Shown in pieces: positions 2,019-59,689 of a stretch of 64,000 nucleotides of DNA. The notes under the pieces are model-generated. The model was not told the origin of the DNA and did no database searches. It worked only from the letters and a program-made list of their open reading frames with translations. Origin of the DNA: Loxodes magnus (taxonomy: Eukaryota; Ciliophora; Karyorelictea; Loxodida; Loxodidae); the NCBI GenBank assembly GCA_946699065.1, contig CAMPDV010000321.1:124001-188000 (forward strand). Reading direction: 5' to 3'. Every line of letters starts with the position of its first letter. Position 1 is the stretch's first letter. The translations under genes and the position numbers were made by a program.

Positions 2019-3096
2019 ATGGAGAGAAAATAAATGGAGAAAAAAGAAAAGCAATTTACTAAAAGTATTTTTTTAAGAAAACTCTTAAGAGCGAGAAACC
2101 ACATCCTAGGGAAAATATCTATACTTCATTTTAAGTATGAAATTCTGCTTATGCTACTAAAAGCTTATAAGCAAGATCAGTTATGACCAAAGTAAAGGTA
2201 TTTCTTTAATATTTTTTAGACTAAATTATTAATATCACTTCACCTGTTTTCTCTGTCGCCATATCAAGTGACCTGAATTGAATTGTATCAGGTTCAGGAT
2301 ATCCTGAAAATTCGATAAAGATCTGGAATTTCCAGACAGGTACTCTCTTAAGAACTATAACAGGGCATATTTCTGAAGTTTTATAGGTAGTAATCACCCC
2401 AGACTCTAGCTATATAGTATCAGGATCTGATGACGAAACCATAAAGATCTGAAACTTATAGACTGGTGCCCTCATAAGAACCATAAAAGGACATACTTCT
2501 ACAGTTAACTCGGTAGTAATCTCCCCGGACTCAAGCTATATCATATCGGGATCTGGTGATAACACTATAAAGATTTGAAATTTCCACTACGGTGATTTCC
2601 AAAGAAATATAACGGAACATACTTCTATAACTTGATCGGTAGTAATCTCCTATGACTCTAAATATATTATATCTGGATCTTAAGATAGCACTATAAAGAT
2701 TTGGGATTTCTAGACAGGTTAGCTTGTGAGAAATCTTACTGGGCATTCAGGCTGAGTTTTCTCGGTAAAAGTGTCTAAGGATAATAGGTATATAATATCT
2801 GGTTCTCGTGACAATACTATTAAGATATGGGACTTCTCTTCTGGTTAGTGTATTCGTACTATTTAAGGTCACGTAGATGGTATATCAAGTATTCAGTTAA
2901 GTGTTGATTCAAGTGTAATATTTTCTGGATCATTGGATAGAACAATCAAGATCTGGAACTTTGATAGGGGTGAGTGTATAGAGACTTTGTAAGGGCATAC
3001 ATCGTATATATATTCTATAGCATTGAGTGTTGACAATAAATGGTTGGTATCGGGAGGACATGACAATACGATAAGAAAGTGGAAAGTTTCTAGTTG
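2019..3096 (+). CDS. WD40-repeat (seven-bladed beta-propeller) protein
   Basis: With TAA/TAG read as Gln and TGA as Trp, one frame from about 2222 to the TGA at 3094-3096 encodes seven WD40 repeats. Each ends in a form of SGSxDxTIKIW[ND]F, and GH dipeptides lie between repeats (for example TGHSGWVFSVKVSKDNRYI). Two of the repeat-final tryptophans are TGA codons and several turn glutamines are TAG. Such a protein should form a beta-propeller used as a scaffold for complexes; the partner is unknown. The 5' end is uncertain. A 22-nt GT-AG intron (2198-2219) fits in phase after a short exon with an ATG at 2137. A coding-like frame beginning at the ATG at 2019 can be joined by a further 37-nt intron (2135-2171). 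Almost nothing is present besides the propeller. It could be a detached piece of a larger NACHT- or kinase-WD40 protein of the kind ciliates carry. Confidence 0.85.
2198..2219 (+). other. Probable 22-nt intron in the WD40 gene
   Basis: The segment begins GTATTTC, ends TTTTTTAG and restores the propeller reading frame when removed. Its length and T-rich 3' half match the other tiny introns inferred in this window (20, 22, 29, 32 and 46 nt). Confidence 0.55.
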
Positions 3097-3609
3097 AGTA
3101 ACTTGCTATTTGACTTAATTTAATTTTACGATTAAATATAAGATATTGGTTATTCATTTAAATGAATATTGAATGGTAATAATGTTCTTTTTTATATGTA
3201 GTGTTTGCTTTATATTTATTAAAGGTTGTATATTGCTAAATATTCGAGGTTTAAAAAATGGTTGAGTAATATAGGTTATAGAAATTAGTGAGGTAAGTGA
3301 TTTAAAATGTTTATGCTTAAAAATATTTTAAATATAATTTTGTTAAATGAAGACGTATAATAAATTTAAGTTTAATTTTATTCTATAAAATTTTATAGAT
3401 TTATTTTTAGATTTTGTAAAAATTTCAAGTTGAGTATAAATTTTTTTTTGTGAAGTAATTAAAATATTATTTATAAGGTTAAAGTTAGTTTGTAATCTTG
3501 ATTATTAATTAAAAAATTTAATTAAGTATTTTATTTTAAATTAAATTAAATTTTGTTTTTTATTATTTATTTTTTATGATTGATATTTAATATTAATTAT
3601 TATATTATT
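3097..3609. other. Intergenic spacer after the WD40 gene
   Basis: The spacer is T- and A-rich without recognisable genes, RNAs or ordered repeats. It separates the TGA of the WD40 gene from the GC-richer leader of element E7. Confidence 0.5.
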
Positions 3610-18114: not shown

Positions 18115-19610
18115 TAATCATATTAGTCATGCTAGCTTATCTTTAATAATTTTAACTAGCTTCAATTTTATTTTCTAACAGCAACATCTAGCATTATTAA
18201 AAATTAGCCTTAATTTTATCTACTAAAATACCTTATAAATAAAGATAATTCTTAGTCTTAAAATCCTAAAGACATGTAACTAAGTAAAGCTAAAGGCTTA
18301 TAATTAATTAAGATAAATTATAACATTTTTGATTAATAAATGTTTAGCTTTATTTTATTCTTATTATATAAGCTAGCTTCTTTATAGTTATTAGAGCTTG
18401 TCTTAATTTTAGTTTCAAATAGATTTATTAAAATAATTAAAAACTTAATTTTTCTTTAGTTCATTAAGACATTTTATTATAATTGCTAAATTTAGTGAGT
18501 ATCTGAATAGTAGAAATTAGATAATACATCTAATATAATTTAAATAAAGTTAACTAGTTAAAATAAGTTTTTCTTTTATCTTATGCTTTACTTTTTATTA
18601 AATATAATATATATAATCTTAATTATTATTACCTTAATTATAGAAATTATTATATTTTATTATATTAGATATATGATTCTACTATTATTAAAACCTTTAA
18701 ACCTTATTTTATTACAATAATAACCTTCTTTTGCTTATTTATTTAATTTTTATTATTAAGATATTTTAGTGAAAATAATATATTAAATAGTAATAATTTT
18801 CCTTCTTTAACTAATAAAAAGCTTTTTTAGTTTAAATCTATTTTTTGAGCTTAATAAAAGACTTTCTTCTTTAGATTTTCTTTTTTAGGGAAGAATTTGT
18901 TATAAAACTAATAATTTATTTTTAATTATGTAGAATCTCTTCAATTAGTATTACAATTATTATCTTAATTATATTATTCAGTTAGGAACTTAAAATACTC
19001 TCAGTAAAATAGAAAATAAAAGCTTTTAGACTTAATTATTAGATTTATTTTAAGCAGTGTCAAAAATAAGTAAATTTCTGTTTATTTTATAAGTTTATTT
19101 GGATATCAAATAGGATGCTATCAGCAAAACCTATTAAAATTAATAAATTTAATGCTTACCATGTATAAATTAGCTGTTTTTCAATTTGATACTTTGTTAC
19201 TTATCTATTTATTAGCTTTTTAATTGTGATTCATTAGATTCTTTTTCTTTTTTCTATATTTAAGAATTAAATCTATTTAATAGACTTAATTTAAAACTAG
19301 CTGATTTTAATTAGTTTTAGGTTTATAGAGTTAGAATATAAAATGATTTAATTATTAATTATTTAGACAATTAGCTTTTACAGTTATAGATGATAAAGCT
19401 AATATTAATTGATTTTATTTAATGTTTTATATAATTTAAGGTATTTAAGAGAATTTAGTCTTTAAGATAATAAAATGTTTACTGGAATTTGCAATTCGAA
19501 TTGCTATCTTTTCAGTTAAGTTCTGAGAAACTATCAAGGCTTTCAGTAATAAAGCTAGACAAATGAATTCTTAAAGTCACATGTTCTTTTAATCCGATTT
19601 GGTTCTCCTT
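18115..19610. other. Intergenic, nothing recognised
   Basis: About 1.5 kb of AT-rich sequence with frequent TAGCTT/AAGCTA words typical of the intergenic DNA here. No supported gene or RNA. Confidence 0.45.
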
Positions 19611-19615
19611 TCTTT

Positions 19616-22250
19616 ATGAAAACTATTAATAACAATCAAAAGACACTAGAAAGGGATGAACGCTAAACTACAAATAATTAAATGAATGAATATGAATACA
19701 AGAATCATAAAGAGAGTTAAACTTTCCTAGATTCATAAGATGAACAAGTTTTTGGTAATAAGGAACAAAAGATTTATCAAGAAGGATTGTAGCTCTTAAA
19801 AGAAGGTTTGAATGAATAAAAGATGGATAAAGTTCTACAAGGAATTCAAACAATTCAAAAGAATAAGTTTGCCAACATCAATGATCCATTAGTTCTTATA
19901 AATCAATTCATTGAAATTATTTCCCATAAGTATGATGAATAATGGTCTTTGCTTTTGAAAGAGTAGCTTGTACGAAATCTTCCTGAGTTATTGGCTATGT
20001 TGCTTTAGAAGAACGAGTAAAACTCCTTTATAAATAAAAAACAAAAGAAGAGCTCATTTTAAAAATAAATGATAGCTTAAAGTTAGTAAATAAAAATAAA
20101 AATAGGATTGGAGGTCCAGAACTAGATTTTTACTTAAGATTTAGTTTGATGATTCTGGAGAATATTCCAGATAGCAAAGAAACCGAATATTTTGGAATTC
20201 TATGTAAGATTTTAAAAGTTGCTTAATGAATAATTGTCTTGACGTTTGGAGTTGGAGTTATAGGGTTAGAAGCGATCTCTATTATAAAGGAGTTTTTCTT
20301 ATGAGGAAAAGGTTGGGTAAATTAGAAGCTCAACTATAAAAAGATTATTAGATTACGAGTCTTAGATGCTCTTGCATGTGATTTAGTGAGACAATACTCA
20401 AAATAAAAATTTTATCAATTTTGAGATATTGTTTTGAAAAAAAAAATAGACTTAAGATTTAGAGCATGCTATCTTCTAAAACACATGATAAAAAACCCGT
20501 AAGCTAGTGCAGAATTGGTAGAAGACTCATGTAAGCTTTTAGAAAAACTATGTGACGACAAGGATTGGTAGATAAGGTACTATGCAATGAAGACATTTTT
20601 GGAATTGATTTTAGAAAAGAACCAAATAGCTTGCACTTATAAGGAAAGAATATTTAAGTAAAAAAAAGAGAACTTAAGCAAGAATGTAAAAGAGCGTTAG
20701 ATAATTCTAGAATTATTAATGGATCCAGAGCATTTTGCTTTATTTACTTAAACAATAGAAGAGAATTGGTTGGCACTTAAGGGCATTAGCAGTAGTATAT
20801 ATTAAAATATGATAAGGACTTTAAAAGAAGAGGTTTCGGAGAAGCAAGAATATTACGTAAGCTTACTTTGCGCTCCTAATCCTAATTCATAAGCTGAGGA
20901 TGATCTTGACCTTGAAATTTTGAAATTTTTAGAAAACGATACTAAGACAGGATTATTACTTCTGGGAGTTTCCGTTTCTGGAAAGTCCTTGTTCCTGAAG
21001 ATTTTAGCCTTAAAATATCTAGACTAGAAACATGAATACTTATCCATATATGTGTATCTCCCAACTATAAAAGCATTCGAAGACAAATTAATAGAATCTG
21101 GTTTAGATAATTATTAAATAGAAAGAAATGAGACATTGAAATTTAGAAAGATTCTGTTCTTATTTGACGCGTATGATGAGTTGGGAGAATGCAAGGCTAT
21201 TATCAGTAGTAATAAATTAAAGCAAAAGTATCCTCAGGCAAAATATATAATAACATGTAGAGTAAATTATGCATTAAAAGAAAAAATTACCAACATTATT
21301 TTGCACCATACAGTAGCGAAAGAGTCTAATTATAAGAGTTATAGGAACTGTATATAAAGCCATTCGATATCGTTTAGATAGAAAAATATATAGAAAAAGT
21401 CCTAGTTAAGAAGAACCAGTAATAATAAAGTGTAAGTCAAGTTTCAAGTCAAGTGGAAGCATCTTAAATATAAGAGATGATGGCATTAATATAGAGAATA
21501 CCTGGTCTGAAAGAAATTATCAGTAATCCCTTTCTGCTATATATTTGTTTGAGTGAGGAAGAGATATTAGATTATTTAAAAAGTGGTTAAGTAGTTTAAA
21601 AGTCTAGAATATATGAGATTTTCATAGTTTAGTGAAACAAAAGAACCTAAGAAAAATTGTAAAATCAGGGTTTAAAAAGTAAGGTGCTCAACTAGTAAAT
21701 AAAGTTGTTTGAAAGTATCTAAAAGAATGCGGCATGGAAGATGTTACAGGGTTCTGTGGAGATATCAAGCTTTGATGAAGTGAATCAAAAGTGGATAGAG
21801 TAGTTTACGGACGATTAAAACCATATAGGGTGTCTGATATAGACAAAGGAATAGAATAATAAAAAGAGGTTTGAGTTTATTCATGCGTCGGTAAGAGATT
21901 ATTATGTGGCAAAGAATATTATAGATTTAGTTTCATCCGCTAAGGCATAAGCAATAGAGGTTCACAATATAAATAAATTTTTGATAGTGGACAATCTGGA
22001 GATACTATAGTTTGTGAGAGAGATTTATAATTCAAATTCTGCAAATAATAATTCAAGTGTGTAATAAAATCTATTGGAGATAGTGAGAATGTCCAGTACT
22101 AATGTTTCTTTATAAATAGCGGCAACTAATAATGTAACGATATTGAATTGGATGGATTACTAATTTACGTCTTTGGATCTATCGGGTATATGTGTGTCCG
22201 AAATTAAAAATTCTAGCCAGATGAGCTTGGTGTGGCTGATTAAATAGTGA
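19616..22250 (+). CDS. NACHT-type NTPase (NLR-like), C-terminal pentapeptide-like start
   Basis: From the ATG at 19616 the frame gives a helical N-terminal region of about 430 residues (PELLAMLLQKN, DFYLRFSLMILENIPD), including HEAT-like helices (DKDWQIRYYAMKTFLELILE). A P-loop GVSVSGKS follows at about 20970, then the Walker B acidic block KILFLFDAYDEL at about 21160 and the sensor-like YIITCRVNYA. This order and spacing define the NACHT NTPase of NLR-type signalling proteins. A 32-nt intron (21312-21343) joins to the winged-helix-like remainder (FEFIHASVRDYYVAKNII). The C-terminus reads IAATNNVTILNWMDYQFTSL then DLSGICVSE, the usual lead into pentapeptide or WD40 repeats, but stops at a TGA (22248-22250). 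One more junction, not placed, is needed near 20020. NACHT proteins act as oligomerising switches; the effector here is unknown. Confidence 0.75.
21312..21343 (+). other. Probable 32-nt intron in the NACHT gene
   Basis: The segment runs from GTAGCGAAAG to GTTATAG. Its removal joins NIILHHT to ELYIKPFDIVQ in the correct frame. It is inferred from the frame change alone. Confidence 0.45.
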
Positions 22251-22339
22251 TAAACCACCAAGCAGAGGTTAGGAAACTGAGAAAGGATAATGAGAAGCGA
22301 ATGGTAAAGCTCAGCCTAGCGGAAGGAATAGAATCGATC

Positions 22340-23210
22340 TTATGACTTGAGAAAGAGAACTAAGATCATCATGAAAAAAAATTAAAAAACATAATAAAAA
22401 ATTCAGAAAAAAAAAATTAGTTAAAAAATAGATCAAAAAAATAGACTGGAAAAACTAAAAAGAATCTAGACAAGCGCAGAAAGTAACATTCTATAAAAAA
22501 AATAAGTAAAAAAAAAAGAAGATAAAACAAAAAAAAAGTGAAGAAATGATACTTTCGTGATTCGAAAGAAATCTGAGTGAAGAAACTGAAAAAAATTCTA
22601 TGATCAAATAAGTACAAAAGAAAAAGAAAAATAACATAAGAATAAGGAGGAAAAAAAGGCAACTGAGAAAATAAAGAGAAAAAAGTTTCTGCGATAAAGG
22701 ATTTAATAAAAAAGATAAACACTTAAATGAACAGAGAAAGATTAAAAAAAACGAAGAAGAAATAGAAGTAAAACCCTAAAATGTATTTAAATAAAAGTTA
22801 TTTCAGTAGTCACGAAGGAAGAGGGAAATCGATTTAAAATTAAAAAAAAAGTTAGTACTCAAATAAATAAATTAATTACATTAAAGAAAAGAATTACTTA
22901 CTCATTAGCGCTTAAAAACACAAAGAGAAAAAAATTTAAAATCAAAAAAGCTACATGTCTTAAAAGTTTTAAAATCGGAAAAATTTCTGAAAAAACTAAT
23001 CAGAAAACAAAGCCAATAAAAAAATAAAGGGCTAAAAAAATATGTTGAAAGTAAGCTGCAAGAGATATGAGACAATATTATAAGAAAAAAACTGATTAAA
23101 AAAATTTGAATATGTAATTGAAAAAATTCTAAAGTTAAAAAATTAAAAGGCGTGAAAAAAAGAAACATAATTCAATAAAAAAACCTTAATCTTGATGAAA
23201 TATTTTAAAC
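22340..23210. repeat. A-rich, purine-biased low-complexity tract
   Basis: About 870 bp consist mainly of poly-A runs broken by single G, T or C (aaaaaaattaaaaaacat, aaaaaagaagat). The opposite strand therefore shows long Phe-rich open frames (about 22417-22722 and 22905-23168). These have the composition of the tract, not of a protein. Confidence 0.7.
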
Positions 23211-30209: not shown

Positions 30210-30660
30210 AAGATTTATTCCGTCCCGAAAAATTTTTGCATTTATAACTTATATCCTTTTTGAATTTAAGTCCAAAAAATTAAGCTTTGCTTTTTATATA
30301 AATCCGAAAAAAATAGCTTTTTATTGAAAAAAAATAGACTGAATCCAAAAAAAAAATTAAATTAAAAAATTGGACCTTTCTTAAATTTTGAGCTGCTTAT
30401 AAAAACTTTTTTCTACAACTTTTGTCCTAAAATTACTTTATTCCGTTTTTCCTTTTGAAAAACTATCTAAATAAAAAAATCATTTACACATTATTCAGTT
30501 CTTATTAAAAAATATCAATAAAAATACCTTTTTACTTTTTACATTAACTTTATTCTCATTCCAAAAATTTTATCCCGATTCATGCAAGTTTGTTCCGTCC
30601 TGAAAATCTCTTGCAGTGTAAAACGCTGAGCAAAAAAACAAAAATAAAATTTTTGAAAAT
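30210..30660 (-). repeat. Inverted remnant of the E7 leader with acggaataaa repeats
   Basis: On the minus strand the segment around 30585-30650 reads tttttgctcagcgttttaca, then ggacggaacaaa and tcgggataaaa. This closely follows E7 at about 4287-4360. The short motif acggaataaa or a variant recurs at about 30440 and 30222, giving three or four copies at roughly 150-200-bp spacing. It looks like a decayed tandem leader of an E7 relative within the AT-rich tract. Confidence 0.5.
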
Positions 30661-31570
30661 TTGGATACTTAAAATACAAATTCAAAAAATAAAAATATTA
30701 AAAGAAACAAATGCAATAAAAAAAACTAACATAATACTAAAAAAAATATACTCGGACACTTTAAAAAATTTTCTTTTTACTTTTTAACGCGTTACTTGGA
30801 AAAAAAAACTTTCTAATAGAACAAAATCTAAAAAAATTTAAACCTAAAATTAAAAAATTTTCAAAAAAAAAATTCTTGAATAACTTAAAAAAAAATTCGG
30901 ACTTAATTCATAAAAAAAATTTTAAATAAATTTAAAATTCAAAATTTTTCTAAAAAAAAATTAAGTAACTTACAAAAAAATCAAATATAAATTTTTATAT
31001 ACCTAATACTCTCTAAAAAAAATTTTAATAAAATTCTGTGAAACTCTTTTAATATTAATTTTTCTTAAATATTCACATTCTTAAATATATAATATACTTC
31101 AAACTTAAATTATTCAAACAAAATAATTTACATACTGTATACTTACATAAAACCTTAAGAAATAAATTAAATTTTAAAACTAAAATATAACCTTTTTTAA
31201 TATTAAACACAAACTTTATAAACCTATACTCACCCACATCACAGTCATTTAACAATATTTATTTATTACTTTAACTTCCTAAACTACTCCTTAACAACCT
31301 CTTTAGATTAAACCTACTTCTAGATTGTAATCAAATATATAATAACATAATATCCAAATACTTAGAAAGTATCTTGTACTTGTAAACTTATATAAATTAT
31401 TATTATTATTTAAAAACATATACTTATTGAGTAAACTTATAAATACATACTCTAAAATATACTAAAGTATACTTGCTACCTAACCTTTATTAGAAAATAA
31501 TAATAAATATAGATATTTCTTAATTCTTAATTAAGTAAAGTTTAATTTGTTCGTAAAGTCCTTCACTCTC

Positions 31571-32451
31571 TCAACTCATCACTACATAACATAGCATTAT
31601 TCCTTACATCCTAAATATTACTTAAAAACCTCCTTACCCCCTTATAATGCTAAAATAACTTACATTCTATATTAACAATTATATTACACTTACAACCTAA
31701 ATCAATATTAAACACATTACAATCTGAAAAAATAAAATATAAAAAAAATACTTACATACTAAAATAGAACATTACGATCTATATGTAACCTTAAACTTTA
31801 ACTTACCATCTTCATTTTCACCTTAAACTTTAACTTACTTGCTTCATTTTCACCTTAAACTTTAACTTACATTCTTCATTTTCACCTTAAACTTTAACTT
31901 ACCAACTTCATTTTCACCTTAAACTTTAACTTACATGCTTCATTTTCACCTTAAACTTTAACTTACCAACTTCATTTTCACCTTAAACTTTAACTTACTC
32001 CCTTCATTTTCACCTTAAACTTTAACTTACCACCTTCATTTTCACCTTAAACTTTAACTTACTATCTTCATTTTCACCTTAAACTTTAACTTACGATCTT
32101 AAGTGTTAATTTTTAAAATGAAACATACCTAAATTAAGTGTTAATTATTAAAATGAAACTTACCATCTTAAGTGTTAATTATTAAAATTTAACTTACATG
32201 CTTAAGTAATAATTTTTAAAATGAAACTTACCTAAATTTAGTGATAATTATTAAAATGAAACTTACCCCCTTTAAACGTAATTTATTAACACCGATACTT
32301 ACAATCTTATCGCGAAACATTTGAAATGAAACTTACATTCTAAATAATTATTAAATACTAACTTATCATCTAAATATTATAACTTAATACTTACCCCCTA
32401 TTATTGTTTAAGACTTACATCCTTTTAAATAGATTAAATCTTAAACTCACC
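31571..32451 (-). repeat. Array of GTAAG...AG introns separated by single-triplet exons
   Basis: On the minus strand, AG-NNN-GTAAG (or a close variant) recurs 25 times. In transcript order the triplets sit at plus positions 32419, 32395, 32367, 32337, 32303, 32267, 32198, 32164, 32095, 32063, 32031, 31999, 31967, 31935, 31903, 31871, 31839, 31807, 31776, 31756, 31721, 31694, 31664, 31638 and 31608 (first base of each). Cassettes are 17 to 36 nt. One starts ATAAG instead of GTAAG. At two points two cassettes abut with no triplet (near 32231 and 32129). The first cassette is a 29-nt GTGAGT intron (32422-32450), and the last leads to a short exon containing the stop. Joined triplets in the upstream frame (phase 1) give an ordinary peptide. 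All introns would then split codons after base one. Confidence 0.75.
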
Positions 32452-33533
32452 TTGCTCTTTATTAAAGTTATAAAATCTATTTACTGTCTATATTATTGTA
32501 AGAAAATTAAATTTGAACTTACTAAATTCCATTTGCAATCTCTCACCATTCAGCAAATTTTAACTCGCTACTGATTAACCGTCATCCAAAATAACCTTAT
32601 TCCTAACGATACTCAAACCGTCAGGTAGTAAATAAGTTTATGATCAGATCTATTGCTTTATCTAACCTATAGTAGTCTCTTATTTTACTGATAACGATAC
32701 CGTTTTATTGTTTGGCGATACAATAGTTATCTAGATGTCCTATAGCTTAGTAGGGATATTTTGAGGTTTTTGAATCTATTAAGGCTACATCACCTAAGGC
32801 TTTACTTGTTACTATTCGATTTACTTAACTTGCATAGATGATAACTGCTATTATTGACTTTAGATTTAAGTACTCAAGTTTTAGATCTCATTCTTTAAGT
32901 AACTATTTTCCTATGTCACTTAAGCTAGATTAAACTTGCAAGAGTCTAGCTCCTCAAAAACTTTAACCGATACCTGATTGCTCTTCTAGATGGTCTTTTA
33001 AACATCAGCTATCAACTTGGAAACTTATTACTCATTCTAAGAGATTCTTAATAAATGATCTATTAGCTGCTCCCTTTTTTATCCATCATCTATTTCTACA
33101 TTTTATAAAACCTCAACTATTATTAGATTTACTTATCTTGCTAAACCAACTGTCTTTGTAAGCTGATATTCTCCTTAAACAAATAAGTACTCACGTGCTT
33201 TATCAACTACTAGATGAAAAGACTGTAGACCTCGGACAATTAAGATTAAGCTTGACGAACTCTTGACGATTGATTCTATAACATCGTTATATTTCCCATG
33301 AGGTTCTTTTGTTCAAGACGCTTAAGTAACTAAGTGTCTTATTGTAAATTTATAGGATGGATCTTATGAACTTTTTAGCAATTTTAGTCAAAGCATTTTA
33401 TCACCTAACTTTTCTAAAACTAATCGGTGACACAGGTATAACATATGTTGTGTTTGCAAGGTAATGAAATTGGGATTTTAATCTACCCATTAAAATCTCC
33501 TTGACACTAAAAACATTTAGTATTCTAGGACAT
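31571..33533 (-). CDS. RING finger / coiled-coil / ubiquitin-like protein, probable E3 ligase
   Basis: The ATG at 33533 (minus) begins MSQNTKCFQCQGDFNGQIKI. It continues as a RING finger: CFQC, then LPCKHNICYTC, then CFDQNC and KVHKIHPINLQQ. A frame change between about 33300 and 33200 (probably an unplaced short intron) leads to a long coiled coil (KREQLIDHLLRISQNEQQVS, NLAQVTQENSYLKNEIQNLS). A ubiquitin-like fold follows (IVSPNNKTVSLSVKQETTIG, then NKVILDDGQSVASQNLLNG). RING proteins recruit E2 enzymes, and the Ubl may bind proteasome or ubiquitin receptors. From 32451 downward the coding sequence enters the array of three-nucleotide exons described separately. Spliced in the Ubl frame, it continues KEQ-G-WDEYWAYDHSGIAF and ESNDLYCQWG, and the last exon ends LMS-TGA at 31571-31573. 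The RING and Ubl calls are strong; the splicing of the tail is inferred. Confidence 0.7.
31807..32098 (-). repeat. Core of the array: 29-nt identical cassettes plus variable triplets (32-bp period)
   Basis: Nine consecutive cassettes on the minus strand are identical: gtaagttaaagtttaag followed by gtgaaaatgaag. Between them the triplets are ATC, ATA, GTG, GGA, TTG, CAT, TTG, AAT, CAA and ATG. Only the triplet varies, while 29 of 32 positions are invariant. The 32-bp period is not a multiple of three, so the tract cannot be an unspliced peptide repeat. Confidence 0.95.
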
Positions 33534-33586
33534 TTCAGATTACATTATAAATTTTTTTTAAAAAATTTTCCTTTTAACCAAAATCC

Positions 33587-34989: not shown

Positions 34990-37900
34990 TTAAAAAACAT
35001 ATAGAAAACCAAAGCTGAACTCCAAAACACTGATGAAACTAAAGAACTAATCAGTAATAATCTCGACAGAAAGCATATACTTGAATTTAAAAAAAGAATA
35101 AAACCCTTGAAGACTATGGATTTAAATCTTAACAAATAATTTCACAAAATGGCCTACGAAAAGTTGAACAAGTAATAGCACCAAAAATCAACATCACAGG
35201 CGACTAATCTAATATAGAGCAAGATTAAGATTAAATCAGCCATACCCAAATAAACTCAATAGATAACTCTTCTCAAATAGAATGAGAAAGAATAAATTTA
35301 GGCACCTCCAATATAAGAGGAATAAGATCAAACAAAGCTTAACTACTAAAGTTTATGGAAGAAAAAATGATAGATATTATGGCGTTATAAGAAATACATG
35401 TAGCGTAATTCGAAGATATGCCACAACTATTTGGATTCAGAGCGTGTATAAAGTTAGGCACAAATCATAGTAAAGGAGTAGCACTCTATATCAGAGAAAA
35501 ATGACTAGATAGAGTAAAAGAAATAGAAATAGAGGGTCTCAACTAAATAGAATTATACCAGGGCAGTCTTATAATAGGTATAAATCTGGATAGCAGATTA
35601 GCAATAATAAACATTTATGCTCCGACAACCTAAGAGTAAGCACAACTGGATATTTTCTATGACGGATTACGACAATTTGTACACACAGCAATCGGTCTAG
35701 GACTTCAAATAATAGTAGTGGGTGATTTCAATGCTCACATACCATAATTTCTACCAAATGAACTAAATATAGCAGGGTAACATTTACTAAATTTACTGCA
35801 AGAATTTGATCTGACATGCAAAGACCCAACACAAGATCCAACATACATCACAATTTAAGGTAGAAGCAAATTCAAAATTGACTATTTCTTAACAGATCCA
35901 TTTATATCACCCAATATCATTAACACTTAATTTTACCAACGCAGAACAATAGGAGATCATCAAACTGGAAGATTAATATTACAGATAGTTAAAAAAGTCG
36001 TGAATATATGTAGAAAAAGAGAATTTGATTTATAAAACTCCAACAAGAATTGGTCTAAGAAAAATTTCAGAAATAGTTTGAGGAAACAGACATAAATCGG
36101 TTCTCACATCTAAGCACTGAAGAATTTTATGTCAAATGATAAGAAAAATTCTATTAAAACGCAGTCTTAGTATGTGGTCACACTACCTAAACAGCAAGAA
36201 AACATTATTACTCAGATAAAACGAAGTAAGCAAGGAAAAGATTCAAAAGCAAAGCAAAAAAAGTAAAACAATTAATAAGACAAGGCGAGCTAGAAACAAT
36301 TCGTGAAATTAAACTAAGATAGGAACTTAGGCTCAAATATAGATTACATATGAAATAAAACTGCAAAAACTAATTCAATATTTTTCTCGACAAAATCAAT
36401 AAGGGGAACCTTAATGACACATGAAAAGGATTAAGCAGATGATTTAAAAGAGGGAAAATAGCACCATGAACATTAGTAAATGAAGAAGACATTCAACATT
36501 TCAAAATAAGCCGAGAAAATCTTTATAAGAATGGAAACAACAATCTACCAAACTAATTCAAAAATTAGCAATCAATTGAAATCAAGATTACTGATATAGA
36601 ATAATGCATCAGAAAACTAGCCCAATGAAAAGCAGCCGGGCCTGACCAAATATAAGCAGGTACAATTATCTCAGGAGGGAAGTAATTGATAATGGAAATT
36701 GCCTAACTAGTTAAAAAAATATTAGAGATAGGAACTATTCCTAAAAAAATTAAAGAATCATACATAGTACTTATACACAAAAAAGGAAGCTCAAATGATC
36801 CAATGAATTATCGACCCATTTCTCTTATTAACCATATCTTAAAAATTATAGATATATGAATATTTGAATAACTAAATTCATATTTAAAACGACAGGATGA
36901 TGAATTATAATATGGGTTTAAACCAAGTAAATCTTGCGACCAACAAATCTTCAATATAAGGAAAATATAAGAATGACTCTACTAAAGCAACACAGAAGTA
37001 GTAGTAATATTTATTGATATTAAGAAAGCATTCGACTCTGTAATAAGATCAGATATATGACATTCCCTAAATGAAATCGAGGTCCCAGAAAAACTAATAA
37101 AATTACTAGCAGAAATATATAGAGAAGAGAACATCAAATTGAAAATAAATGATCTTATATCAGATAAGTTTGAAACGGAGAAAGGAGTTAAATAAGGATG
37201 TACATGCTCTCCTAATCTTTTTAATATTATAATAAATATACTTTTAAAAGAATTAAGATAAAAATAGATCGGAATAACAATGAAACTCGAAACAGAATAC
37301 TGTATAAGGCAAAGATATTGTGGTACGTTGGCTTACGCGGATGATATAGCATGCATAGTTCAACCGGAACAAATACAAGAACTAAGTGATATTCTAACAG
37401 CATGATCTAAAAAATACAAAATGTAAATAGCAGATAAAACGAAATGAATACTATGAAATGGAAATAGTATAAAAAACTAAACAATAATAAATATAGATGG
37501 AATGCAAATAGAAAGGGTGAAAACTTTTAAATATCTTGGACATTGATTACAGGAAGAAATATCTTTTGAAAAGCACTTAGAATCTAGAATCTCTGAATGT
37601 CAAAAAACACAAGCATGAATCTTAAATAAGATCACAATATAAAAAGGTATCACCCCCTATAATGCATAGATGATACTAAAAGCTTTTGTAAACTAAATTT
37701 TTGGATATGGAAGTGAGGTCATTCCATTTATAGAAGAAATCATAGGACAAGGTATTCTAGAGAAACTAAAATAATTCAACGAAGATCTCTTAGAGCATTA
37801 ATAGATGCTCCATTCTGTATTCAAAGCGAGATACTTGAAAATGAATTACAATTTACTAAAATGTAATACTATTTATGATAACGTATGCTGATGTTCAGAC

Positions 37901-38985
37901 GAAAATTACTCCTAAACTCGGAAACAACTATGGATGGTTGAATGTGCTAAATCACAAAATAAAAAAATTTTTTATTTGAAATCTACTCATAAAAAGGGCA
38001 AGAAAAACTAAGATTAAACGATCAAATTTTAATGCAAGACGAGTGAAATGGTTAAAAAATAAAAATAATAATAAATGATGCTATAAAATTCCATAATAAA
38101 GTAGAGGCTTTACTCGCATGGAAAACATGACAACAACCTTTATTTATAGAAGCCAATGACTTGAATCCTTTATAAAAAGTCCTCCAAATTACCTAAGATA
38201 TAATAAGCATAGAAAATAAGAAATTTGTTATCTATTCAGATTAAGAGCCAAATATAGCGGTGCAGCACAGACAATGAAAGTAAGGCATTTAATAGAAAAT
38301 AACATATGTAATATGTGCAGAAATGGGATAGAGGATGAGGCCCATATAATTGAGATATGCGAATAATATTAATAAGAAAGAGAAGAATTGTAATAAAAAT
38401 TAAATACAATAGAACAAAATTAAACCTAAATAAATATTATGTAGACCAAACTAAATTTATTCAAAATAGTTTGAGGTAATTTTGAATTTGAAAATTGAAT
38501 TCGGTCTTTTCAAATAGATCAGAGAAGCTCAATAGATGCATGAATTAAAGATTTTATTAAAAGCATACTAGAAAAAAGAAGACGGGGATATATAAACAAA
38601 ATCCTTCCTTTTAATAAAATAATAGGTAAGGATTATAGAGCTGGCTCAAGTAAGCACACTTGAATATTCAAAAAGCTAGTCAATGAATAAAAATAAAAAG
38701 TAGAAAAAAGAAAATGAAATTTATTTGACAAATAGATAGAATAAAACTTAAAAAATACAAAAAAGAGACATACAGATGAAATGTAATTAAATAAACAAGC
38801 GAAAAAGATAAAAATTTAATAAATAATAATTGAACTCAATTACTCTAAAGAGATCTTTTAGAAGAAATTGATCCTGAACTCTCAAATTAGTAGGTATTAG
38901 ATATGCTAGAAGAGGAACTTGATGAAGCACAAGAAATTCAAAGAGACCAGATGAAGCTAGAATCATTTCTAGCCTATTATTAACA
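34990..38985 (+). CDS. LINE ORF2: AP-like endonuclease and reverse transcriptase
   Basis: The endonuclease runs from about 35290. Landmarks are INLGTSNIRG (Asn), IMALQEIH (Glu), LAIINIYAPTT (Tyr), IIVVGDFNAHIP (Asp/Asn), KIDYFL (Asp) and IGDHQTGRL (His). The reverse transcriptase follows from about 36600 in another frame: AAGPDQIQAG, VLIHKKGSSNDPMNYRPISL, VVVIFIDIKKAFDS, GVKQGCTCSPNLFN and the catalytic TLAYADDIAC. After a further frame change comes the usual LINE tail (QRRSLRALIDAPFCIQSEIL), and after another a C-terminal zinc motif, CNMCRNGIEDEAHIIEIC. The protein nicks the target and copies RNA at the nick. Frame changes lie between 36050 and 36600, near 37770 and near 38220. Confidence 0.85.
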
Positions 38986-55699: not shown

Positions 55700-58600
55700 A
55701 ATTTTTTAAAATTTATTCTCATTTTTATATTGTCTATAAATTATTTCGGCTGTTTTCATAACTTATATTCTCTATATTGTTTCCTTGAAAAATTTTATTT
55801 TTATTTTTTTTTAGATTTCTTTAGTATAATTGTTTATGTTAAGATCTTTTATTTATTCATTGTCTATTTCATAGTATTTTTCAATTTTTTTAATGCTTTT
55901 TTTATATTTTGAGTTCTATTTTTAACTCTGTTTGAAAAGTTATTAGAATTTTGTGTCTTATCTACTTTTTTCTTTTTCTTGATCATTTCTGAATTAATCT
56001 TATAACTTTTTGTAGAATTTTAAAAATCTTTATGCTGTTGAATCTTCAAATTTACATCAATTGAAATCTATATACTATATTTCTTTAAATGATGCTTGTG
56101 GAATTTTCAAGTATTTTCTTAGGATTTATCTTTGTGCTATTTAGATTTTATTTTTTCATTTTGTTATTCCTAATTGAATACTATATGGGATTAATTCCGA
56201 GCATTATTCTAATTTTGGCATTGTAAATAATCTGAATAAGTTCTTAAAGTTAATTGGCTATGTTTTGTTATAGTTTTTAAAGAATTAAGATTAGAATATA
56301 AATATCGATTATTAAAATTTCTTGAAGAGGTACTCAACCTGAACCTTTTCTTCATTAAGTTAATTTATTTGATATCCTAGGTATTAAATTTTCTATTTCT
56401 ATTAAATTTTTTTTCCTAATAGAAAAAGTTCAATCTCTTTGTTCGTTGTGTTTCTATTCTTAAGTATTTATATAAATTCGCATTTCTCCGTGTTAATATT
56501 AAGTCTTATTAATTTAAAAATGTTTTCAGTTTCGTTTAGTAAGATTTACATATTTTTTTGATTATTTGATATTAGTATTAAATCATCTGCTCAAGCAAGT
56601 TTAGCATGATAAATTTTTTGAATTTTATGCCCTAGTTTTTCATATTTTTCTAAATACCTTAATACTATATCATAGTATATTATTGCTAATATTGGTCCAC
56701 TTGAGCTGCCTTGTAAGACTCCATTTACTTACCGAATTTTTCTAGTTATTTCTTCATCAAGATAGAAGTTAATTTATACTTTTTAATATGTATCTTTTAT
56801 TATATTAATTATATTTTACGAAATGTTTAATCTTTTCATCTGGTCAAATAAAAATCTGCGATTTATTGTGTCAAACATTTTTTCTACATCAATTAACGTG
56901 ATTAATAAGTCTTCATTATAATTTTCTTTTTTCTTTTTATTTTTATAGTTTTCTATGATTTATTTTAATTATCATATATTATTAGCAGTTTGCATCTTTT
57001 TTATAAATCCTTTTTAATCTTTGTTTAATATATCTTAATCTGATATTTCTTAGTATAATTGGTTAGTTACTAATTTAACAAATATTTTTTAAATTACGTT
57101 TATGAGTGCTATCGGTCTGTAATTTTTTCAATTTTATTTGTTTCCTTTTTTGTGAAGCATTATTATTTTAACTTTGTTCATATTTTTAGGGATTTTTTAT
57201 TGCTTCTAGCAATTTAGAAAAATTTGCATAGTATTTATCATAGTTCGTGTGATGCGTTTTTTATTAGTTCATTTGATATTGAATCAAATCCTTGAGCCTT
57301 ATTGTTAGGTAAAATCTTATTACATCTCATACTTACTAGTATAGAATATTTTCTCATTTTTTATTTTTTTTTAATCTTTCTTTAATATTTGTTCCATAGA
57401 TTTTGTCAATTTCTTTATTAATTTTGTTATTTTAGTTTAGAGAAAGATTTTATTATTTATTAAATACATTTTTCTCCCAATTTTGAATGAAGTCTTCTTA
57501 TTACATTTTCGTCAGGTTCATTTTTGTTCCTTTTTTTGGGTTTAAAATCTTTTTGGTTTAATTGGCCATTTCTTGATTATTACCATTTAGGAATATTTAT
57601 TAGTTATTTTTATTTTGCTGTTGTTATTCTTTTTACATTTTGCTGTACTTGTTTTTTTCTTTTAAATTTTTCTTTTTGAGTTTTAATATGAATCGTTATT
57701 TCTATTATATTAATTTATTTCTTACATATACATATTTCTAGCTATATTTTTCTCAGCATCTATTAATATTATTTTAAAGATTTTTTAGCCTCTTGTTGTC
57801 TTTTAATTCCTATACTATTGAATGCTGATATATGAATTAGATTTATAATAAAGTCGTATTATTCTTCTAGATTTTTTTCATCTATTAATTAATTAAAAAT
57901 TCATATGTCCCTCTATATTCTTCTTTATAGGAATACTTTCAGATAACTTATTTTAATTTTTTCAATTTATAACTTATTTTAAATTATGTGAACTTGTCAT
58001 TTTTTTAGATTATTGCTTATCTAATTTAAGTTTATATTATGAGTAGAAAATGATCTGTTGTTAACTCCACTTCTTCTTAAACGTTAAATCTGAAGTTTTC
58101 TTATTGACTGTTTTTTTAATTAGTGAATATATAATCAATTATTTATCTTTGCTTTGCTTATTTAATTATATGAGTATTTTATCTTTCTTAGTTTATATCT
58201 ATCAAATCGAAAGTTCGCACAAATTGCTATAGAAGTTCATCTACGTATTTTATGCTTTTTATTTATTTAAGTGAGCATTAAAATCTCCACATATGATTAT
58301 TTTGTGATTTTTAAATTAGTCTAATAACTATCCTAGTTCTTAATAACAATTATATATTAGTTCCACTGATTGATTATAATTGGCTTATAGATATTTATAA
58401 CTATTAATTCATTTAGTTTGAAGGCTTGTATCCTGTTATAATTATGCTAGATTTGAATTTCTTCAACTTGACCTTCAATTAAAAAAAAAGCAAATAGTCC
58501 TTCTGTTTTTCCAGTTCCTTACAGGAAATATTATTTGAAATTTTTGTTTAATATTCCATATTCTTTAGTAGTTTATGTTTCTTGGAGCATTAGAATATGC

Positions 58601-58760
58601 AGGTTATTTTCTTAAATAAGATTATTTATTTCTAATTTTTTTTAAAGTATCCTCCATTTATATTTATGGATCCGATTCTGTATATTTTTTCGTATTCTTC
58701 TATATATTAGGAGTTAATTCCATTTCCTTCTCAATTTTCCAGTTGTTGTAAAAATAGGTG
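55700..58760 (-). CDS. LINE-2 ORF2: AP-like endonuclease and reverse transcriptase
   Basis: Endonuclease landmarks in order are RIGSININGGYF (Asn), ILMLQETQTTKEYG (Glu), ELIVINIYKPII (Tyr), KIIICGDFNAHLNK (Asp/Asn), IIDYIFTN (Asp) and LTTDHFLL (His). Reverse transcriptase landmarks are NNKAQGFDSISNELI, IIMLHKKGNKQNWKNYRPIA, LLITLIDVEKMFDTI, VNGVLQGSSSGPILAI and the catalytic KLAWADDLILIS. The catalytic box is thus W-A-D-D, with TGA coding the Trp, where Y/F-A-D-D is usual. The tail RKYLKIPQASFKEIQYIDFN is typical of LINE C-termini. The reverse transcriptase half reads as one frame; the endonuclease half needs several changes. Confidence 0.8.
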
Positions 58761-59689
58761 AAAATCTTTTAGTTAGTTAAAGTCTTGATATATTTAGCTA
58801 TATTATTTATCTTTAATTAAATTACATTTATTCAAACTTTATAGTTTTTTCTAATTCTCATAGTTTTATTATAAATATTACTAGTGGTGATGTGATTAAT
58901 TTGCTTGATTTCAGAGATTATTTTGTGGTTATCTTGCTCCACCTTTTAAACCTCTTGGTTTAATTCAGATTCAGTTTTTCTTTGGATATAATTTTACTTT
59001 TAATAGATTTTCTTCTTGTTTAAAACTTTTTTTAATTCATTTATATTATTCTAATTTTCTAGGTATTCTTTTTAGTATTTTTTAGTCTATGTTTAAGTCG
59101 AGAAATTTTTTATTTTTTTGTTTGTTAGATTAAATCAGCGCTTTTAACTATTTATTAATAATTAGTTTTTATCATCATTATTAATCTAAATTTTCTTTTT
59201 ATGTGTTTTTCTAGGCTTTGTTTTATAAACGCGTTAGATTTATTTAAATAGTGTGGCTAGAATTTTATTTAGTTTTAGTTTATATTTTTTATTATTTTAT
59301 ATCTTAAGTTAAAGTACTTTTAATAACCTTTTAGTCTTTCTTTTTTACGTTTATATCAGAATTATTCACATTTTGTTTCTAAATTTTCCAAATTTTCTGT
59401 TGCTTCTCTTTTCTTTTAATTATTTTCTTATGAAGATATTTAAAATGTTTTGTATTTGAGAAGAAATACAATGTCCCTAATATTATATTCATCAATTTAA
59501 GTAATTATATTTGCTTTTTTCTTAGTTATTAAATTATTTCTTATTGTTGTATATTTTAAGTTAAGTTGTTTTTATTCTTAGTAATTTTGTTTCTCTTCTA
59601 ATGATTTGCTCAAATTTCTCTGTAGTTAAATAATTTAGCTTTACTTATCTTCTATTATTTAAATTTTTTTATTTATTTATAGATTCCTA

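Follow-up and report, generated by a model that had tools for sequence, protein, structure and literature searches.

Directly 3' of the ubiquitin-like domain of a RING-coil-Ubl gene, the minus strand of the 64,000-nt stretch of DNA analysed here (the window) carries an array of intron-like units (32451-31582) in which exactly 3 nt separate each AG from the next donor-like pentamer. Parsing of this array yields 25 triplets with first bases from 32421 to 31610 (minus strand), 14 of which are distinct. The reading that we favour, with moderate confidence and on the strength of the sequence arrangement, is that tandem spliceosomal introns of 17-35 nt cut the 3' end of the RING-Ubl gene into approximately 25 exons of 3 nt each. 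Should RNA confirm this reading, the gene would possess the most finely split tail known to us and would mark a new extreme of gene fragmentation.

Anatomy and spacing of the array

Along the minus strand, the first intron of the array as drawn in the preliminary description (GTGAG...AAAAG, 29 nt, 32422-32450) is followed by a 5' block (32267-32421) with, in order, the triplets GAT GGG ATG AAT ATT GGG and introns of 21, 25, 27, 31 and 33 nt. By eye, these introns are mostly unlike one another: the third starts with ATAAG and the fourth partly resembles the middle block. The middle block (32098-32266) consists of related 31-35-nt units of the GTAAGTTTCATTTTAATAATTAACACTTAAG type with the triplets CAT and ATG, and contains both zero-length junctions of the array (TTTAG/GTAAG at 32231 and TTTAG/GTATG at 32128), each of them within a 66-nt stretch. 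Next comes a homogeneous block (31807-32097) of nine identical 29-nt bodies, GTAAGTTAAAGTTTAAGGTGAAAATGAAG, and the ten triplets ATC ATA GTG GGA TTG CAT TTG AAT CAA ATG. The 3' block (31582-31806) holds the triplets ATC TAT ATT GTT AAT GGG GAT and introns of 28, 17, 32, 24, 27, 23, 27 and 26 nt, the first of which has its 5' part in common with the 29-mer and the others of which are mostly dissimilar (by eye). Splitting of both 66-nt stretches at their internal AG/GT gives 28 bodies, 20 of them distinct, with lengths of 17-35 nt (23-35 nt in 26 of the 28). Upstream of the array, the junction scan revealed a possible 26th triplet, ACA (AG-ACA-GTAAA, 32485-32487, minus strand), which could represent an extra single-codon exon. 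The preliminary description had reported AG-NNN-GTAAG 25 times, without mention of the two zero-length junctions, the two 66-nt stretches or the possible ACA triplet: the 25 triplets are indeed found at this place and on this strand, but the donor 3' of the triplet is strictly GTAAG in only 22 of the 25 cases, with GTAAT in two and ATAAG in one (32366, without GT).

Past the 3' end of the array (31574-30500) there is no clear continuation, with AG-N3-GT occurring 11 times versus 10 times each for AG-N0 and AG-N5. Measured in 2-kb steps, GC skew across the window is strongest in the region 30500-32500 (-0.52 at 30-32 kb, plus strand), the minus strand being C-poor; as this C-poor strand runs approximately 1 kb past the array, the transcribed non-coding region may exceed the array itself. 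Within the array, TTTCATTTT and AAAATGAAG are complementary stretches in two intron families (32098-32266 and 31807-32097, minus strand), and one intron (32197, minus strand) resembles a hybrid of both families. Folding of the tract as RNA revealed nothing special (-143.3 versus a shuffle mean of -136.0, z = -1.4, with 3 of 20 shuffles equally good).

Since the AG ends and the donor list are partly built into the parse, the independent figure for the spacing is that of the GTAAG pentamers: within 31570-32530, 22 of the 24 lie at AG+3, the remaining two being the AG+0 junction (32231) and the donor of a candidate 35-nt intron (32522). Counting the nine identical units only once leaves 16 GTAAG, 14 of them at AG+3. 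Across 2000 dinucleotide shuffles the mean number of GTAAG at AG+3 was 0.38 (full) and 0.17 (collapsed), with a maximum of 3 in both. Distances of 1, 2 and 4 to 11 between GTAAG and AG do not occur in 31570-32530; the others are 0, 12 and 13 (one case each) and 15 (nine cases, one GTAAG being countable repeatedly). With the AG+3 spacing far above chance, the earlier claim of a triplet series continuing from the RING/Ubl gene on the minus strand was borne out. At sequence level, the 22/24 figure corresponds to the putative successive symmetrical exons in multiples of three by which micro-exons are recognised.

A chain test, using intron-sized steps of 14-45 nt and a constant exon length k, was applied to both strands of the window. 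For k = 0..39, the longest chain was 17, at k = 3, and chains of 9, 5, 5 and 5 at k = 15, 21, 27 and 35 all terminate at 31806, within the array; the minus strand with the array masked gave zero chains of at least 3 over the same range of k, and the plus strand gave a single chain of 3 at k = 3 (22014-22083), inside a coding frame by eye. When ATAAG was admitted as a donor as well (k = 0..15), the minus strand yielded two chains at k = 3, of lengths 17 and 6, besides one of length 9 at k = 15 and one of length 3 at k = 5; the plus strand again yielded a single chain, of length 3 at k = 3. When any GTA/GTG was accepted as donor and chains shorter than 4 were disregarded (k = 0..15), the minus strand gave chains of 18 and 6 at k = 3 together with chains of 9 at k = 0, 6, 12 and 15, and the plus strand gave no chains. 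We take these chains of nine to lie in the nine identical units, nine being the number of units.

Scans of IMG/VR and of prokaryote genomes served as a control covering viruses and prokaryotes, not as a survey of eukaryotes. A three-junction AG-N3-GTAAG pattern returned at least 120 IMG/VR stretches with no run of more than 4 distinct triplets, versus 14 in the array; those inspected were short-period satellites and scattered matches. A stricter junction pattern was found in one IMG/VR stretch (contig L027) and in 109 stretches in prokaryote genomes; none of the 117 prokaryote runs of at least 3 junctions exceeded 4 distinct triplets, and among the 30 of these runs that were inspected most have spacings in multiples of 8 nt. 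One viral contig (L120:7100-7320) has spaced GTAAGAC motifs, with AG-N3-GTAAG present four times at spacings of 57, 30 and 37, and looks unrelated.

Identical bodies, differing triplets and splice sites

Across the nine consecutive bodies of GTAAGTTAAAGTTTAAGGTGAAAATGAAG, 0 of 29 columns vary, whereas the ten triplets that flank them differ from one another at a mean of 2.18 of 3 positions. The minimum number of changes is 8 across the three triplet columns (3, 2 and 3) and none across the other 29. Given that all changes fall between AG and GT, the conserved unit starts precisely at GT and stops precisely at AG, and the divide between invariant and variable columns coincides with the splice sites that the spacing had independently predicted: this confinement of variation to three columns is the strongest internal evidence for splice-site boundaries. 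Had the block arisen by tandem duplication and ordinary mutation, changes would be expected throughout the 32-column unit. An unspliced, plain tandem repeat in which one triplet is a mutational hot spot would agree with the periods of 32 and 34/35 nt that Tandem Repeats Finder identifies in the array, but it leaves unexplained both the agreement with the GT/AG boundaries and the triplets, 13 in all, that the 5' and 3' blocks hold. The flanking bodies are dissimilar (by eye) and still keep the 3-nt spacing, so that tandem repetition alone fails to explain why the triplets are so spaced, and the series seems to predate the sequences of most of its introns; a plain repeat is thus highly improbable.

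We give just as little credence to an unspliced coding minisatellite, in which three 32-nt units would make up a 96-nt period and hence a 32-residue repeat (VSQSLRWKW.. QVKVQGENE.. KLKFKVKMK). The frame of such a repeat is fully open with TGA read as W; however, the nine bodies are identical at every position, silent ones included, and the flanking blocks outside the repeat still keep AG-N3-donor. Furthermore, 32 is not a multiple of three, and hence one and the same DNA triplet would have to vary in all three frames.

No sign of target site duplication of the transposon introner type was obtained for the identical bodies: a triplet ends in the base with which the next one begins in 3 of 9 cases (shuffle mean 2.4), and the other one-base comparisons were likewise at chance, so that a DNA-transposon introner is not indicated. 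The 23-nt core of the bodies is present in nine copies, all in one run, and was found nowhere else in the 64 kb at up to 3 mismatches.

The ends of the 28 bodies are those of U2-type introns, with GTAAGT at 21 and GT at 27 of the 5' ends and AG at all 28 of the 3' ends, the latter being partly built into the parse. GTAAGT donors match U1 well through U1 pairing. The acceptors are GAAG (9), TTAG (7), TAAG (5), ATAG (3), AAAG (2), TCAG (1) and GTAG (1). Stretches resembling TTAAC/TTAC are visible by eye in several of the other bodies; the nine identical ones lack C altogether, and consequently no classical branch-point match is seen in them. There is no depletion of 3n body lengths (6 of the 20 distinct bodies), and the triplets (6.7% C) are C-poor like the introns (3.4%) when compared to the upstream exon (13.1%). 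Besides the missing branch-point match, the undepleted 3n lengths and the C-poor triplets, the one ATAAG donor and the two junctions without an exon stand against a reading by splicing.

From their sequence, the GT...AG ends would nonetheless favour the spliceosome over removal at the DNA level. Short IESs or other DNA elements with 3-base couplers, removed or concatenated during nuclear development, would suit a ciliate-like host, and by analogy the identical 29-mers with their variable 3-base couplers may resemble concatenated excised elements. Known ciliate IESs are bounded by TA, and the ends found here are not TA boundaries but GTAAG...AG, the intron consensus; the dissimilar bodies, moreover, have only splice-site-like ends in common. 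Loxodes, which uses the same code, is described as lacking extensive DNA elimination (PMC11441545). Taken together, these points make an origin of the array in DNA elements quite unlikely.

Host gene, genetic code and reading phase

The coding region for RING, coiled coil and Ubl (32523-33545, minus strand, ATG at 33545) starts in the RING frame and, following a -1 change, continues in the frame of the coil and Ubl. Its Pfam matches are weak, with zf-RING_UBOX (E = 0.005) and ubiquitin (E = 0.0007) both under the gathering score. In a PDB search, query residues 126-189 (32548-32739, minus strand) matched ubiquitin chains: the very low E-values belong to polyubiquitin chains, and single ubiquitins and variants gave 0.005 to 0.08. 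This Ubl match ends just upstream of the triplet series. The point at which the RING and coil/Ubl frames part by -1 fits best at an A6 run (33080-33075, minus strand, by hand), and we take this change to be either an assembly indel or a real frameshift; in general, the frame changes seen in the genes of the window suggest assembly indels, a point that counts against the array as read from a single sequence. A 16-nt intron, GTAAATCTAATAATAG (33132-33117), was tried as a link from the RING to the coil frame and rejected, as its length gives the wrong frame shift. With this candidate rejected, the window offers no verified intron with which the array could independently be compared: none was confirmed outside the array, and the WD40, RING-Ubl and LINE coding stretches are intron-free by eye.

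The proteins of the window were read with TAA/TAG as Q and TGA as W, in agreement with coding according to NCBI table 27 (karyorelict-type). Five chosen coding stretches (1270 codons) contain 82 TAA/TAG, 18 TGA and 6 TGG codons. The tryptophan of the WD40 KIW motif is encoded by TGA in 2 of 6 cases, and in the reverse transcriptase sequence Q-TGA-KAAGPD a TGA occupies the tryptophan position before KAAGPD. This tryptophan is conserved in LINE enzymes. NCBI table 27 is described for karyorelict ciliates such as Loxodes (PMC11441545), although one Amoebophrya likewise reads all three codons as sense (PMC6394959, PMC12005148).

Several further features were identified in the window. A WD40 propeller gene at 2201-3100 (plus strand) has seven Pfam stretches, is intron-free by eye and uses both TGA and TGG for its repeat tryptophans. 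At 35001-38700 (plus strand) lies a LINE-like element with an AP endonuclease (Exo_endo_phos, E = 1.7e-12) and a reverse transcriptase (RVT_1, E = 2.9e-34) in different frames and with TGA at tryptophans; a second endonuclease/reverse-transcriptase-like element was recognised by eye at 56000-58800 (minus strand), and further open reading frames, near 46-48 kb and 50-55 kb, may be remnants of LINEs. An NACHT-like ATPase with frame changes was noted by eye at 19600-22400 (plus strand; GVSVSGKS and ILFLFDAYDELGE), for which a search of three frames gave no Pfam match at E 0.01.

The phase in which the triplets would be read depends on the upstream junction, where the candidate 35-nt intron (GTAAG...ATATAG, 32488-32522, minus strand) follows MEF after the Ubl domain; use of this intron helps to set the phase of the array. 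Worked out by hand, the junction of the preliminary description (35-nt intron retained, exon running to CAAG) gives phase 1 and GWDEYWAYDHSGIAFESNDLYCQWGLMS-TGA, as does the alternative in which the intron is spliced and ACA and AGCAAG act as exons. Retention of the intron with the exon ending at ACA gives phase 0, in which DGMNIGHMIIVGLHLNQMIYIVNGD is followed immediately by TGA TGA, and splicing of the intron with the exon running to CAAG gives phase 2. Depending on the phase, the final exon (31571-31581, minus strand) thus reads (T)TG ATG AGT TGA (phase 1) or opens with the immediate TGA TGA (phase 0). Splicing of the 35-nt intron alone leads to MEFNSKQILQLQQRAR and then a TGA (32449-32447), before the array is reached (by hand). 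The triplets had been described as continuing the Ubl frame: a peptide does follow in phase 1, but the phase is ambiguous, with 1, 0, 2 or a prior TGA according to the upstream junction.

The composition of this peptide had also been put forward as an indication of coding. The phase-1 codon score is no better than that of shuffled triplets, with upper-tail fractions of 0.30 (order), 0.70 (column) and 0.42 (full), and hence the argument from composition carries no weight. Phase 0 scored marginally better than phase 1 (0.03 for the column and 0.07 for the full shuffle, the order shuffle being inapplicable); phase 2 gave 0.34 (order), 0.01 (column) and 0.11 (full), but in this phase four of 24 codons close to the end would be TGA. 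The codon statistics favour none of the phases, and with TAA, TAG and TGA all possible sense codons an open frame is weak evidence.

An array that is transcribed yet lies outside the protein, either because the gene stops at the TGA at 32449-32447 or because the tract is removed as one composite intron, would be in accord with the unremarkable phase-1 peptide, with the low-C composition that the triplets share with the introns and with the stop that is reached when the 35-nt intron alone is spliced. In the composite-intron version, the AG-NNN-GT sites would be stepping stones of recursive splicing or their relics. The two zero-length AG/GT junctions do look like recursive splice sites. Were the triplets never to enter an mRNA, there would be no evident reason why 3 nt should be maintained in 25 places across dissimilar introns, nor why differing triplets should stand beside nine identical bodies, and we consider both versions together to be rather unlikely.

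Proposed splicing of single-codon exons and comparison with known systems

What the sequence shows is the anatomy of the array, its spacing and the boundary between identical and variable columns. Under the favoured reading of tandem introns around single-codon exons, we infer that the array would be transcribed and spliced and that its triplets would enter the protein in one phase. Splicing could proceed by intron definition, in which short introns would be recognised as units and no minimum exon length would be needed, the introns being removed one by one and the upstream exon growing with each splice. Similar donors and acceptors approximately 30 nt apart would often mispair. With every exon 3 nt in length, any number could be skipped and the frame would be kept: this tolerance would provide a natural reason for the strict exon length and may be the selection that holds it at 3. 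The series would then be older than the sequences of most of its introns, and in its middle one intron body would recently have been copied over nine neighbouring positions with the codons preserved. Such copying, confined to the intron, might be lariat or cDNA based or might occur by short-tract conversion; alternatively, the codons may have been preserved by selection against codon changes. The full proposal, that nearly every codon of a tail of at least 25 residues is set apart from the next by its own same-phase intron, with bodies copied from codon to codon within boundaries set at the splice sites and without target duplication, is put forward tentatively, as a possibility that we hold to be more doubtful than the tandem introns themselves.

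If correct, the consequences would be considerable. An intron-definition spliceosome would be able to join dozens of 3-nt exons in order and, since every subset of exons would keep the frame, a single gene could produce a great number of different tails. The nine identical introns between different codons would be a natural record of intron multiplication, in which RNA-templated or splice-site-delimited copying of introns would have left direct traces, resolved to the single codon. The origin of new spliceosomal introns is a long-standing question, and the locus would allow a direct test of copying models. As common read aligners need exon anchors of more than 3 nt, standard annotation is predicted to fail here.

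In the literature searched, long arrays of single-codon exons are not described, which is not proof of absence. Intron-flanked exons consisting of one base or a few are known from the 1-nt microexons of plant APC11 and VPS55, the 3-bp exon of Drosophila homothorax and the microexons of RPS24 (PMC8831610, PMC7392893 and PMC11162997); these occur singly or as a few per gene (three in RPS24), whereas approximately 25 would follow in succession here, between introns of less than 36 nt. The GTAAGT of 21 of the 28 bodies also recalls the strong GTRAGT donors that accompany the conserved 1-nt microexon of plant VPS55 (PMC8831610).

Many successive very short exons in multiples of three are likewise a property of the Schistosoma MEGs, the exons of which are mostly 15 bp (6-81 in the text of PMC10526429, 3-81 in its abstract) and mostly multiples of three, with introns of 100 to almost 5000 bp; in contrast, the spacers of the array are 3 nt and its bodies 17-35 nt. 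The MEG proteins are secreted. Near-identical introns at many positions are found with introners, which in fungi are without TSD and TIR and are attributed by some to reverse splicing (PMC9860276). Introners insert into many genes, whereas the nine copies seen here form one run, 3 nt apart, with none elsewhere in the 64 kb.

The array bodies also approach the size of the tiny spliceosomal introns of ciliates such as Loxodes and the heterotrichs; those of Loxodes have a mean of 19.3 nt, with 93% of no more than 25 nt and 3n lengths depleted (PMC11441545), whilst the bodies of the array are mostly longer and are not depleted in 3n lengths. Finally, the two AG/GT junctions, with zero bases between adjacent introns, are reminiscent of stwintrons and recursive sites, but stwintrons are nested, one inside a splice site of the other, and the introns of the array lie end to end. 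Microexons, MEGs, introners, tiny ciliate introns and stwintrons each share one feature with the array and differ from it in another.
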